Below, piece after piece: positions 56,288 through 60,335 of a stretch of DNA of 64,000 bases; positions within the stretch are counted from its first letter, which is position 1; the number at the start of each line of letters is the position of its first letter. Made by a program: the position numbers and the translations under genes. This DNA is from an uncultured Clostridia bacterium (GTDB lineage Bacteria; Bacillota; Clostridia; Christensenellales; Borkfalkiaceae). The stretch lies in contig CANQOB010000004.1 in the NCBI GenBank assembly GCA_947625385.1, forward strand, positions 1 through 64,000, written 5' to 3'. Under the pieces are notes generated by a model. It searched no databases. It worked only from the letters and a program-made list of their open reading frames with translations, and was not told the origin of the DNA.

Positions 56288-56842
56288 CTACTCCTCTTTC
56301 GCGCGCAGGATGACTTTGAGCGTCAACCCGCCTTGCACCGTATTGATGACGGTAAAATTTGTCCCATCAAATGTGCATGTGATCGCGGGGGCGTCCGCGG
56401 GAACCTGTTGTGTAACGCCGTTCATGGTGACCGAAACGCTCGTAATCGTGACGGTGTCCCCGTTTACGGTATAGGTCGCGACTTGCTCGATCTTCATTTC
56501 GCCGTCGTCGGCTTTCAAGAGCGCCGTTCCGTCGGCATGGAATGTATATTCAAGACCGCGGTTGTGCCCTCGGTACTCTTCGAGAAGCGTTGCATCCATG
56601 CCCTCGCACTGCACGTCGTAGAATACAAACGTCTTTCCGGCAAGACTCGTTTCCTCGCCGCTTCCCTGTTCGGTTCCGCTGCCTTCGATTCCACTGCCCT
56701 GCTCATTCCCGGAGCCGCCCTGCTCGGTCTGCGACCCGTCCGAAGGGGTTTCCGGCGTTTTTTCGCCGCATGCGCCGAGACCGAAGCAGAGGCAAAGTGC
56801 CACGGCAAGCGCAAACATCGCCGCCAAAAATTTGTGTTTCAT
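56288..56842 (-). CDS. hypothetical lipoprotein
   Basis: MKHKFLAAMFALAVALCLCFGLGAC lipobox, Gly/Ser/Glu/Gln linker, beta-rich domain; AAGGAG RBS; start inside the longer ORF. Confidence 0.75.
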   Translation of the reverse strand: MKHKFLAAMFALAVALCLCFGLGACGEKTPETPSDGSQTEQGGSGNEQGSGIEGSGTEQGSGEETSLAGKTFVFYDVQCEGMDATLLEEYRGHNRGLEYTFHADGTALLKADDGEMKIEQVATYTVNGDTVTITSVSVTMNGVTQQVPADAPAITCTFDGTNFTVINTVQGGLTLKVILRAKEE

Positions 56843-56870: not shown

Positions 56871-57036
56871 CAAAAAATAAGGGCATCCGACAAGGGATGC
56901 CCACATAATGTATCCCTGTCGTTTGCCTAATAACTTAATTTCCTTCCTTTGTTGGATGAGAAATCAGGATACAACTATGCTATAGTAGTATCCAACAAAG
57001 GCAGAGGAATATAATTCTCCAAATTAAGTTATTAGG
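56871..57036 (-). ncRNA. candidate structured 5' leader/attenuator upstream of the lipoprotein gene
   Basis: 16-bp P1 stem (56926-56941/57021-57036), inner 12-bp stem (56946-56957/56990-57001), antiterminator (56912-56921/56888-56898), terminator (56881-56888/56895-56902) plus U-tract. Confidence 0.6.
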
Positions 57037-57043
57037 CTCTTTC

Positions 57044-57072
57044 ATTATAGCATGCAAAAGCAAGATTGGCAA
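57044..57072 (-). promoter_or_regulatory. sigma-A-type promoter for the structured leader
   Basis: -35 TTGCCA (57067-57072), 17-nt spacer, -10 TATAAT (57044-57049). Confidence 0.7.
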
Positions 57073-57188: not shown

Positions 57189-60100
57189 TTACTCCTCTTT
57201 CTTGGCTTTCGGGAAGAACATGAACAGCACGCATGCGCCGATTCCGAGGATGAGGACCACGTCCGCGACCGCCCACAGTGCGGGCACGACGGGAGAAAAC
57301 GGAGTCTTGCTGACGCCCGCGCCGAGCGCGACGTTGTAGGAGTCGTCGCCGTTCTTCTGATAATCCTTTGCCGCCATGTAGGTGTCCACATAGGTGTAGA
57401 GAATCCCCTTGACGGACTGACGGGAGGCATATTTGAGCGCATTGTCGGAGTCGATGGCAAGGCTCTGGTCGCCCGTAGGATTCGAGCCGAACAGCCACAG
57501 GTCGTTGCCCGCCTTGACTCCCTTGTCGAAATACTTCATATAGTCATCGTTCATGTGCCAGTCCGTGATCACAGAGCCGTGGAAGCCCCATTCGCCGCGG
57601 AGAACGTCGGTAAGGAGCGCATGGTTGTAGCCGCACCACACGGCGCCGAGCTTATTGAAGGCGCTCATCATGGCGTTTGCGCCGCCCTCCTTGACGCAGA
57701 TCTCGAACGGTTTGAGGTAGACCTCGCGCAGAGCTTGTTCGGGAATCCATTCGTACCAATCCTTTGCGTTTTCGCCGTTGTCGCTGAGCACGAAGTGCTT
57801 GACGTAACAATACAGGTTGAGCTGCTTTGCGCCGCGGACGGTCTCCGCACCGAGCTCGCCGGAGAGGACGGGGTCCTCGCTGTAATACTCGTAATTCCGG
57901 GTATTGTAGACGGAGCGGTGCAGATTGACGCCGGGAGCGTACCAGCCGTAGGCATTCGTGGCATTGCCGATCATGCCCTGTGCGCGACCGAGATTATAGG
58001 TGAGCCGCGTGTTCCAGCAGCACCCCGTCAACGTCTCCGCGGGGAACACCGCCCAGGAGGGGTCGGGATTGCCGGGAGAGATGACTGCCGAATTGAATCC
58101 CGCAGGTCCGTCCGTATTCATCTGGAAGGGCTTGCCGATGCTCTCGATGTTCATCGTGCGGAACCCGCCCTTGATGATGAGATTTGCGACATCGGTACGG
58201 GTCATCTGGTTGAGGAATTCGTTCCACGCGTCCTCATTGTCCCAGTCACAGAGCTCCTCGAAGAGTTCCTCGTTGACTTCGAGCTTGCGGGCGTTCGCCG
58301 CGCCCGTCAAATCGTCGTTGTTCGGTCTGGAACCGTCGGAAGCGACAACGGTGAGATAGCTCCCTGCATCGTTGCCGAAATCGATCCCGGCAGTATCCGC
58401 GCCCGCATCTCCCTCATAGGTGTACCCTGCCGCGCTCAGCGCCGACTGCGTGAGATTGTACGTCTCGACGGTGCGGGGGAAGTTCTCGAATTTGTTCTCG
58501 CGCGAGAGATAGGAGACGCCGCCCGCGATTCCGGTCGAGCCGTCGACGGGCATGTTCGCATAGGCAGTCGTCTCGGAATTGGTCGTAAAGCGGTTTTCGA
58601 CCTTCGCCCCCGTCGCGGGGTCGCTGTCGAATTTGATTCCGTCACAGTAGGGAAGCAGCGGCTCACAGTCATCGAGCGCTTCGTGCGCGTTCGCCATGAG
58701 TTTGATCTCGTAGTCGCCCTCGTCGAGCTCATAGCCCATATGGTTGTTCTGATTCTTGTCGTCCGCATCGTAGGACGCCATGTCGTATGCCGTGAAAGAG
58801 AGAACGACGTCCTGTTGGTCGAGCGAGACCCCTTCCCCGTTCACGGAGCCCGCCTTTTCGAGCTGGGCGGTCTTGCCGAACGCAAGAAGGTTGATGCTCG
58901 CCTTTTCGATCTGCCCCGAATAGTAGGGCGCCGAGTAATAGAGCTGGACGACCTCTGCGCCGCGGCGGTCGCCCGTATTGGCGACGTGTACGGTCACATA
59001 GTATTCCGTGTCGGGTTCGAGCAGATCGAGCCCGTCCGTCGGGACCTTCTCCTTTTCGCCCTTCTCGTTGACTTGATAATACCCGACTTCGGTGATCTCA
59101 TGCGAGAAGGTCGTATAGCTCAATCCGTAGCCGAACGGGAATTGAACGACGTCCTCATACGTCTTGCCGACGGAAGAGAAATACCCATCGGCGTCGGCGG
59201 TCTCATACCACTTGTAGCCGAAGTAGATACCTTCCTGATACACGATTCCGGCGTTCCCGGGATAGCCGTGCTGCGCGCCGTGCGAAAGTGCGTTCGCATA
59301 CACGGGATTTTCGGTCTGCCAGTCATAGGCATAGGTATCGGAGAGCCTGCCCGAGGGGCTGACCTCCACGAACTCGTAATCCCCCGTCCCCTCTCCGTTC
59401 TCATCGAGGATCTCGACGGGTTTTTCGCCGTAGAGCACCCACGGCACAGCCCGCGCGCCCGACTGCCCGGGAATCCCGATGTAGAGACATGCACGGATGT
59501 TTTTGTACGTTTCGAGGAAGCCGAGTTCGAGCGGGTTGGTCGTGTTGAGAAGGACGACGACGTCGAAACCGCCCTGTTCGAGTTTCTCGAAGATCGCCTT
59601 CTCCTCGGCGGTGAGTTCGAGGAATGTTCCGTCCCGATAGACGCTCATCTTGGTTTCGACGAGCTCGCCCCCGCCGCCGTTTTCGCAGCCCCAGCGGGAG
59701 AGCACGACGACCGCGGTGTTCGAGAAGCTCTTCGCTTCATTCATGAGGTCTGTCCCGTACCAATCCGCGCCGGGATTTTTGAGACTGTCCTCCGCATTCG
59801 CCCCTGTGGAGCCGTCTGCGCCGCGATAGTCGGCGTCTTTGACATCTCCGAGCGTCGTCGTGAATTCGTCGTACTTCGCCGCAAGCGCGGTGTTGTAGAG
59901 CGGTTCGTCATACTCGTAGATCTTTCTGTATTCCTCAAACGCTTCGAGCAGCGTCAAGTGCATGGGATTGCTCTCCTCGATGGGCGAGCCGCCGCTGCCG
60001 CCGCCGACGAGAAGGAAGCCGTTGTCGGACGAACCCCATCCGAAAAAGTTGACCTTGCTCCCCTTTTCGAGGGGCAGGAACCCGTCATCGTTTTTGAGAA

Positions 60101-60335
60101 GGACGAAACTTTCCTCCGCGATCTCCCCGATGAGGTCGTCCGCGGAATTGAGCGCATTCTCCGATTCGACCGTTCCCCCGCCGCTGCCGAGTCCTCCGAA
60201 GTAGGCGTGAAGAATGGATTGATAGGTGTAGAGAACGACATTCGCGGCGATCAAAGCGGCGCAAAGCACCGCCGCGACGGCGAAAAGTACGATTCTCTTC
60301 TTTCCCTTTTTCCCGGAAAAAAACGGAATTGCCAT
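57189..60335 (-). CDS. glycoside hydrolase family 3 protein, domain-permuted, TM helix at both ends
   Basis: 1048 aa; N-terminal EESFVLLKNDDGFLPL (GH3_C-like), FPFGYGLSYTTF, C-terminal barrel with GFHGSVITDWHMND. Confidence 0.88.
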   Translation of the reverse strand: MAIPFFSGKKGKKRIVLFAVAAVLCAALIAANVVLYTYQSILHAYFGGLGSGGGTVESENALNSADDLIGEIAEESFVLLKNDDGFLPLEKGSKVNFFGWGSSDNGFLLVGGGSGGSPIEESNPMHLTLLEAFEEYRKIYEYDEPLYNTALAAKYDEFTTTLGDVKDADYRGADGSTGANAEDSLKNPGADWYGTDLMNEAKSFSNTAVVVLSRWGCENGGGGELVETKMSVYRDGTFLELTAEEKAIFEKLEQGGFDVVVLLNTTNPLELGFLETYKNIRACLYIGIPGQSGARAVPWVLYGEKPVEILDENGEGTGDYEFVEVSPSGRLSDTYAYDWQTENPVYANALSHGAQHGYPGNAGIVYQEGIYFGYKWYETADADGYFSSVGKTYEDVVQFPFGYGLSYTTFSHEITEVGYYQVNEKGEKEKVPTDGLDLLEPDTEYYVTVHVANTGDRRGAEVVQLYYSAPYYSGQIEKASINLLAFGKTAQLEKAGSVNGEGVSLDQQDVVLSFTAYDMASYDADDKNQNNHMGYELDEGDYEIKLMANAHEALDDCEPLLPYCDGIKFDSDPATGAKVENRFTTNSETTAYANMPVDGSTGIAGGVSYLSRENKFENFPRTVETYNLTQSALSAAGYTYEGDAGADTAGIDFGNDAGSYLTVVASDGSRPNNDDLTGAANARKLEVNEELFEELCDWDNEDAWNEFLNQMTRTDVANLIIKGGFRTMNIESIGKPFQMNTDGPAGFNSAVISPGNPDPSWAVFPAETLTGCCWNTRLTYNLGRAQGMIGNATNAYGWYAPGVNLHRSVYNTRNYEYYSEDPVLSGELGAETVRGAKQLNLYCYVKHFVLSDNGENAKDWYEWIPEQALREVYLKPFEICVKEGGANAMMSAFNKLGAVWCGYNHALLTDVLRGEWGFHGSVITDWHMNDDYMKYFDKGVKAGNDLWLFGSNPTGDQSLAIDSDNALKYASRQSVKGILYTYVDTYMAAKDYQKNGDDSYNVALGAGVSKTPFSPVVPALWAVADVVLILGIGACVLFMFFPKAKKEE

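Follow-up and report, generated by a model that had tools for sequence, protein, structure and literature searches.

A Putative Riboswitch-like Leader RNA Family with a Switchable Terminator in Clostridia

Features of the Leader Locus

The window, that is, the whole stretch of 64,000 nt analysed (contig CANQOB010000004.1 of assembly GCA_947625385.1), carries on its minus strand a leader upstream of a lipoprotein gene. Between 57189 and 64000, the same-strand upstream genes encode what we take, by reading, to be a GH3-like protein, an Ig-like-repeat lipoprotein, and a GH16-like protein, and the gene at 57189-60335 is presumably glycoside-hydrolase-like. The latter gene is followed at about 57149-57114 by a hairpin seen in the sequence and resembling an intrinsic terminator, so the leader would have its own promoter. 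The features are given below with the evidence for each. A1 was a MAFFT alignment of 32 members and the source of covariance model R1; A3 comprised 54 matches including divergent members and was the source of covariance model R2. In the swap test, the pairing energy of a member's own strands (self, kcal/mol) was compared with that of its strands paired with those of other members (cross).

57044..57072, minus strand, predicted promoter: TTGCCA (57072-57067), 17-nt spacer, and TATAAT (57049-57044); predicted start 57037 (sequence)
56872..57037, minus strand, whole leader RNA from P1 to the U-tract, about 166 nt (R1, R2, fold)
57021..57037, minus strand, P1 5' strand GCCTAATAACTTAATTT (covariation in A1 and A3; swap test)
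56925..56941, minus strand, P1 3' strand AAATTAAGTTATTAGGC (covariation in A1 and A3; swap test)
56990..57001, minus strand, P2 5' strand CCTTTGTTGGAT (fold; A3 covariation)
56946..56957, minus strand, P2 3' strand ATCCAACAAAGG (fold; A3 covariation)
56967..56993, minus strand, P3 hairpin GGATACTACTATAGCATAGTTGTATCC (A3 covariation)
56967..56980, minus strand, P4 5' strand GCATAGTTGTATCC (complementary to the linker; swap test)
56904..56915, minus strand, P4 3' strand GGATACATTATG, after P1 (complementarity; swap test)
56912..56921, minus strand, P5 antiterminator 5' strand CGACAGGGAT (linker shuffles; swap test)
56888..56898, minus strand, P5 antiterminator 3' strand ATCCCTTGTCG (shares bases with the arm and loop of the terminator)
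56872..56902, minus strand, intrinsic terminator GGGCATCC...GGATGCCC plus TTATTTTTT (energy; covariation)
56288..56842, minus strand, downstream lipoprotein gene, 184 aa, lipobox LGAC (ORF and translation)

All the elements named in a first-pass annotation of this DNA were found in the minus-strand sequence at the positions it had given. These were the TTGCCA-17-TATAAT promoter, the antiterminator helix (56921-56912 with 56898-56888), the terminator stem (56902-56895 with 56888-56881) with its U-tract (56880-56872), and the lipoprotein ATG after the U-tract, which lies at 56842. The inner 12-bp stem (57001-56990 with 56957-56946) and the near-palindromic hairpin (56993-56967) were also present, with GGAT common to both. 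The outer stem was likewise found, but it is 17 bp long instead of the proposed 16 bp, as G57037 pairs with C56925 too. Three features had gone unnoticed: about 12 divergent copies in the window's own genome, conservation across the class, and the long-range helix P4. The 3' arm of P3 doubles as the 5' strand of P4, which forms a pseudoknot across P1.

The leader at 56872..57037 (minus strand) matched R1 with 100 bits (E 1.6e-16) and R2 with 95 bits, and both models had been trained with the window copy included. Folding of the 167-nt RNA gave -57.5 kcal/mol against -33.6 kcal/mol for 200 dinucleotide shuffles, none of which folded as well (z -5.75). The downstream lipoprotein (56288..56842, minus strand) had only a weak match to DUF5640 (Pfam E 0.0012, below the family cut-off).

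Directly 3' of the U-tract (56870-56865, minus strand) lies GCCCGC, which is complementary to the pre-terminator GTGGGC/GCGGGC (56904-56899). The GCCCGC/GCGGGC pairing was frequent in the window's family and missing from many members, and it was rejected as a core part. Pairing of the linker with the 3' strand of P1 (ATTGT/ACAAT) had seemed promising on inspection, but it failed the swap test (-3.1 vs. -2.6) and was likewise rejected.

Promoter and Transcription Start

Among 120 members, the TATAAT-like -10 box was separated from P1 by 6 nt in 80 and by 7 nt in 13, and the spacer to a -35-like box was 17 nt in 75. The best-match score of the promoter alone is indecisive, because the DNA is AT-rich and shuffles often reach 4-5 of 6. 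The fixed distance from the -10 box to P1 makes the first base of P1 the likely start, which is predicted and not measured. The putative sigma-70-type promoter is locked in register with P1.

Classical leader-peptide attenuation by ribosome stalling would have the same layout of terminator and antiterminator as these leaders. However, P1 begins at the predicted +1, and a start codon with a Shine–Dalgarno match was present in only 23 of 128 leaders, by which the test for a conserved translated leader ORF was not met. An explanation of this kind is hardly credible for the family.

Conservation of the Helices

Covariation in homologues, on which the first-pass annotation had made its proposal depend, was present in both alignments and in the swap tests. 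In A1 (32 members), P1 and the terminator were paired in 97.8% of cells, with a covariation score of 0.45 vs. 0.18 for shuffled alignments. In A3 (54 divergent members), P1, P2, P3, and the terminator were paired in 93.3% of cells, and changes on both sides occurred in 34 of 35 pairs. The covariation score of A3 was 0.716 vs. 0.221 shuffled (0 of 500 shuffles as good), and slid controls reached 0.07-0.13. Both-side changes were found in all eight pairs of P2 (8/8), and the pairs of P3 also covaried, with 90.5% of cells paired. Thus, the evidence for compensatory change in the predicted P1, P2, P3, and terminator is strong.

The alignments A2 and A3 were fitted to the model structure, which biases them toward that structure. 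As A3 favours the structure in this way, swap tests without alignment were added; neither the shuffles nor the swaps are phylogeny-aware. The self and cross energies were -19.2 and -9.2 for P1, -13.0 and -7.1 for P5, and -14.2 and -12.6 for P4 (90 members). For the 52 divergent members, the corresponding values were -17.1/-7.3 for P1, -11.5/-6.9 for P5, and -13.4/-10.8 for P4. The alignment-free swaps back the inferred P1 and antiterminator P5, and P4 more weakly. The weaker signal of P4 arises because its letters are partly conserved; a median of 14-24% of its crosses paired equally to self. The P4 duplex was GCATA..GTATCC/GGGATAC..TATGC in the window's family, and it was rebuilt with other letters in divergent members, such as GTATCTC/GAGATAC, CTTCTC/GAGAAG (L202), and CCAA/TTGG (L207). 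Outside the order, it took the form AAAAGG.GT/ACACTTTT.

Terminator and Antiterminator

The first-pass annotation had described antiterminator and terminator as mutually exclusive, and this held well beyond the window copy. P5 had at least 6 bp and at least 3 nt in common with the terminator in 106 of 116 members, with a median length of 11 bp. Furthermore, P4 and P5 shared at least 2 nt in 98 of the 116. Strands are thus shared in succession by P3/P4, P4/P5, and P5/terminator. The P5 score was 20.8, compared with 11.3 when the linker was shuffled, and p was 0.05 or less in 100 of 115 members. Comparison of the members shows the predicted helices and their mutual exclusivity, and the leader test of a terminator with an exclusive antiterminator, both kept by compensatory change, was met. 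The label "attenuator" is well supported by this comparison, in the absence of transcript or termination data.

The terminator and antiterminator of the window copy had energies of -15.6 and -10.0 kcal/mol, respectively, and the medians over the members were -17.5 and -10.0 kcal/mol, with the terminator more stable in 109 of 115. The strand GUAUCC belongs to both P3 and P4, which points most naturally to two global states: P3 with P5 for read-through, and P4 with the terminator for stop. The antiterminator is transcribed ahead of the terminator and both are stable, which would also suit a leader that has no specific ligand, switches through folding kinetics, temperature, or ions, and serves chiefly to hold read-through at a constant level. 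However, read-through at a purely constant level would not require compensatory changes that preserve P3 as well as P4, and we regard a ligand-free leader as improbable.

Distribution of the Family

R1 found 12 copies in the window's own genome (the number is approximate) and matches in 53 of 61 genomes of the genus. In the order, 55 of 297 genomes had matches, covering 26 genera and at least 13 families besides that of the window, and in the class 48 of 392 genomes did. With R2, matches (E<=1e-4) were obtained in 70 of 292 genomes of the class, and these covered 45 of 180 genera. The R2 tally is not entirely independent, as about 15 loci of the class sample were in its training set; R1 was trained without them, and the E-values of both models are rough. 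Elsewhere in the phylum, neither R1 (299 sampled genomes) nor R2 (249 sampled genomes) gave any match.

BLASTN against same-family genomes gave 79% identity over 183 nt in one genome (G047), along with numerous shorter hits in the region of the terminator. In addition, a terminator-flank pattern searched in 85,462 species genomes matched at least 117 stretches. By inspection, most of the listed stretches were true members from uncultured Clostridia MAGs, and those in other phyla were chance matches. According to the record names, many member MAGs came from rabbit-gut and other host-associated samples.

Many copies per genome, together with P1 as an inverted repeat at the ends, could suggest a MITE-like mobile repeat. 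However, BLASTN in the own genome yielded no second copy and only short weak matches (best E 0.02), so the copies there are too diverged for BLASTN to detect beyond such pieces. Plasmid records gave no BLASTN match, and phage records gave none for two queries, including the window element, whereas a third query had a single weak match; viruses were covered only by this BLASTN search. Moreover, the changes compensate internal RNA pairings, and the orientation to the downstream gene is nearly constant. The element is accordingly not a transposing repeat by the searches of its own genome, plasmids, and phages, and a mobile origin is extremely unlikely.

The phage-record match (L241:555-714) lies in MT837627.1 (Bacteriophage sp., unverified, 6.5 kb, human faeces) and scored 65 bits with R2. 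The next ORF encodes a zinc-ribbon membrane protein, and the record may be bacterial.

Downstream Genes

A total of 94 members were examined for downstream genes, and 89 had enough downstream sequence. An ORF started within 150 nt in 81 of these 89, mostly 13-45 nt 3' of the U-tract, and its start codon nearly always had a Shine–Dalgarno match. The leader test of position, namely between a promoter and a start codon on the same strand, was met. About 8 copies had no suitable gene close downstream. Such copies, for example L206, where the gene runs in the opposite direction, would be compatible with a separate small RNA that has its own promoter and is ended by the terminator, the downstream gene being incidental. 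This possibility is very improbable, as a close ORF follows in 81 of 89 copies, the kinds of gene found there are far from a random set, and a conserved antiterminator would be purposeless in such an RNA.

A lipobox was present in 42 of the 81 downstream ORFs, compared with 10 of 122 window ORFs (Fisher p 4e-12). Because every long window ORF, even a spurious one, counted in the control, this enrichment is only approximate. A further 15 downstream proteins had zinc-ribbon cysteines at their start, and that of L008 combined a zinc-ribbon with a BspA-type LRR. The other downstream genes were, by reading, presumably lepA, metK, an ABC ATPase, a methylase-like gene, and genes for small proteins of unknown function. 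The description "orphan lipoprotein" in the first-pass annotation was fair for the gene in the window; it does not fit the RNA overall, which is a family with varied downstream genes. The proposed regulon would consist mostly of surface lipoproteins and zinc-ribbon membrane proteins.

Some individual copies were distinctive. In the own genome, one copy (L217, C14:38013-38155) stands directly before lepA and has a poorer U-tract than usual. Among the other members, L182 is separated from a metK-like gene by about 120 nt. Eight members (L019, L049, L099, L105, L136, L143, L148, and L153) precede secreted proteins with the common N-terminus MKIKRKTFVGG(I/L/M)LATLCACTALTFG. These proteins diverge after the N-terminus, like a common leader and signal peptide with exchanged bodies.

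Proposed Mechanism

Sequence comparison gives good support for the RNA family, for its switchable terminator, and for its position before genes. Very probably, the window element belongs to an undescribed family of leader RNAs that regulate transcription termination in cis and in a riboswitch-like manner. Transcription would start at the first base of P1, and P1, P2, and P3 would fold first, after which the linker 3' of P1 would have two pairing options. In the ON state, the linker would form antiterminator P5 by pairing with the terminator's 5' arm and loop, and the polymerase would enter the gene. In the OFF state, GGGAUAC...UAUGC of the linker would pair with the P2 loop as the P4 pseudoknot and P3 would be unravelled. 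With the inner portion of the P5 5' arm taken up by P4, the more stable terminator would form. A signal favouring P3 or P4 would decide the outcome. The direction of the switch and a small-molecule signal acting on the P1-P2-P4 pseudoknot are inferred, without expression or ligand data.

The downstream genes are diverse and indicate no single metabolite. That most copies precede diverse surface genes, and not one metabolic pathway, would also agree with an attenuator switched by a protein, either an antiterminator or an RNA-binding repressor, and the conserved single-stranded letters of the P3 loop and the pyrimidine tract could be protein contacts. However, the targets of BglG/LicT are far smaller and less elaborate than this element. 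The own genome has one NusG domain protein and no NusG paralogue; with a single NusG homologue there is no LoaP-type paralogue, and LoaP-type antitermination is unlikely. No candidate protein was identified. A protein switch remains possible, though we consider it unlikely.

A strict ligand-binding riboswitch is likewise an unproven hypothesis, as there are no ligand data. We give an even chance to the reading that the family is a new class of ligand-sensing riboswitch, present in about a quarter of the sampled class genomes and often in 5-12 copies per genome, which chooses which surface lipoproteins and zinc-ribbon membrane proteins are made in response to a signal other than c-di-GMP in the window's species. 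GGDEF had no match in the own genome, which is 95% complete, and control genomes did match, so c-di-GMP is unlikely as the signal. An RNA switch in dozens of Clostridia families and absent from Rfam would rank among the more widespread orphan regulatory RNAs, and it would join many uncharacterised surface proteins into one regulon. Furthermore, the alignment, the models, and the defined switching strands provide a direct handle for finding the signal.

Comparison with Known Systems

The leader had not been recognised as a known riboswitch class, and no known Rfam family was found in the window or in 26 member loci (Rfam 15). The scan of the window at gathering scores gave no family over the leader, and in the member loci at E<=5 nothing over the element came near a family gathering score. 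The orphan RNA lists (PMC8632094, PMC11109978, and PMC8040213) likewise contain computationally found bacterial structured RNAs before genes, and the available passages of these papers describe nothing with the present features; supplements and subscription papers were outside the scope. The supplements of PMC8040213 hold 3161 candidate structured RNAs, and an unnamed entry for the element there is possible. The term "undescribed" thus holds for Rfam 15 and for the accessible passages of the literature.

T-box leaders resemble the element as Firmicutes leaders with an antiterminator and a terminator that have a common strand. However, no T-box match was found with the Rfam model up to E 5 (stem I was not searched separately), and the genes downstream of the inspected copies were not aminoacyl-tRNA or amino-acid genes. 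The leaders of LoaP and other NusG paralogues are similar in being leader RNAs before surface or long genes in Clostridia. In the window and member loci, no Rfam model of a c-di-GMP riboswitch matched. The leader differs from riboswitches of the preQ1 and c-di-GMP-II type in that it matches no Rfam class and its ligand is unknown, but it shares with them the 5' position, a compact pseudoknot, a terminator with an antiterminator, and many uses per genome.
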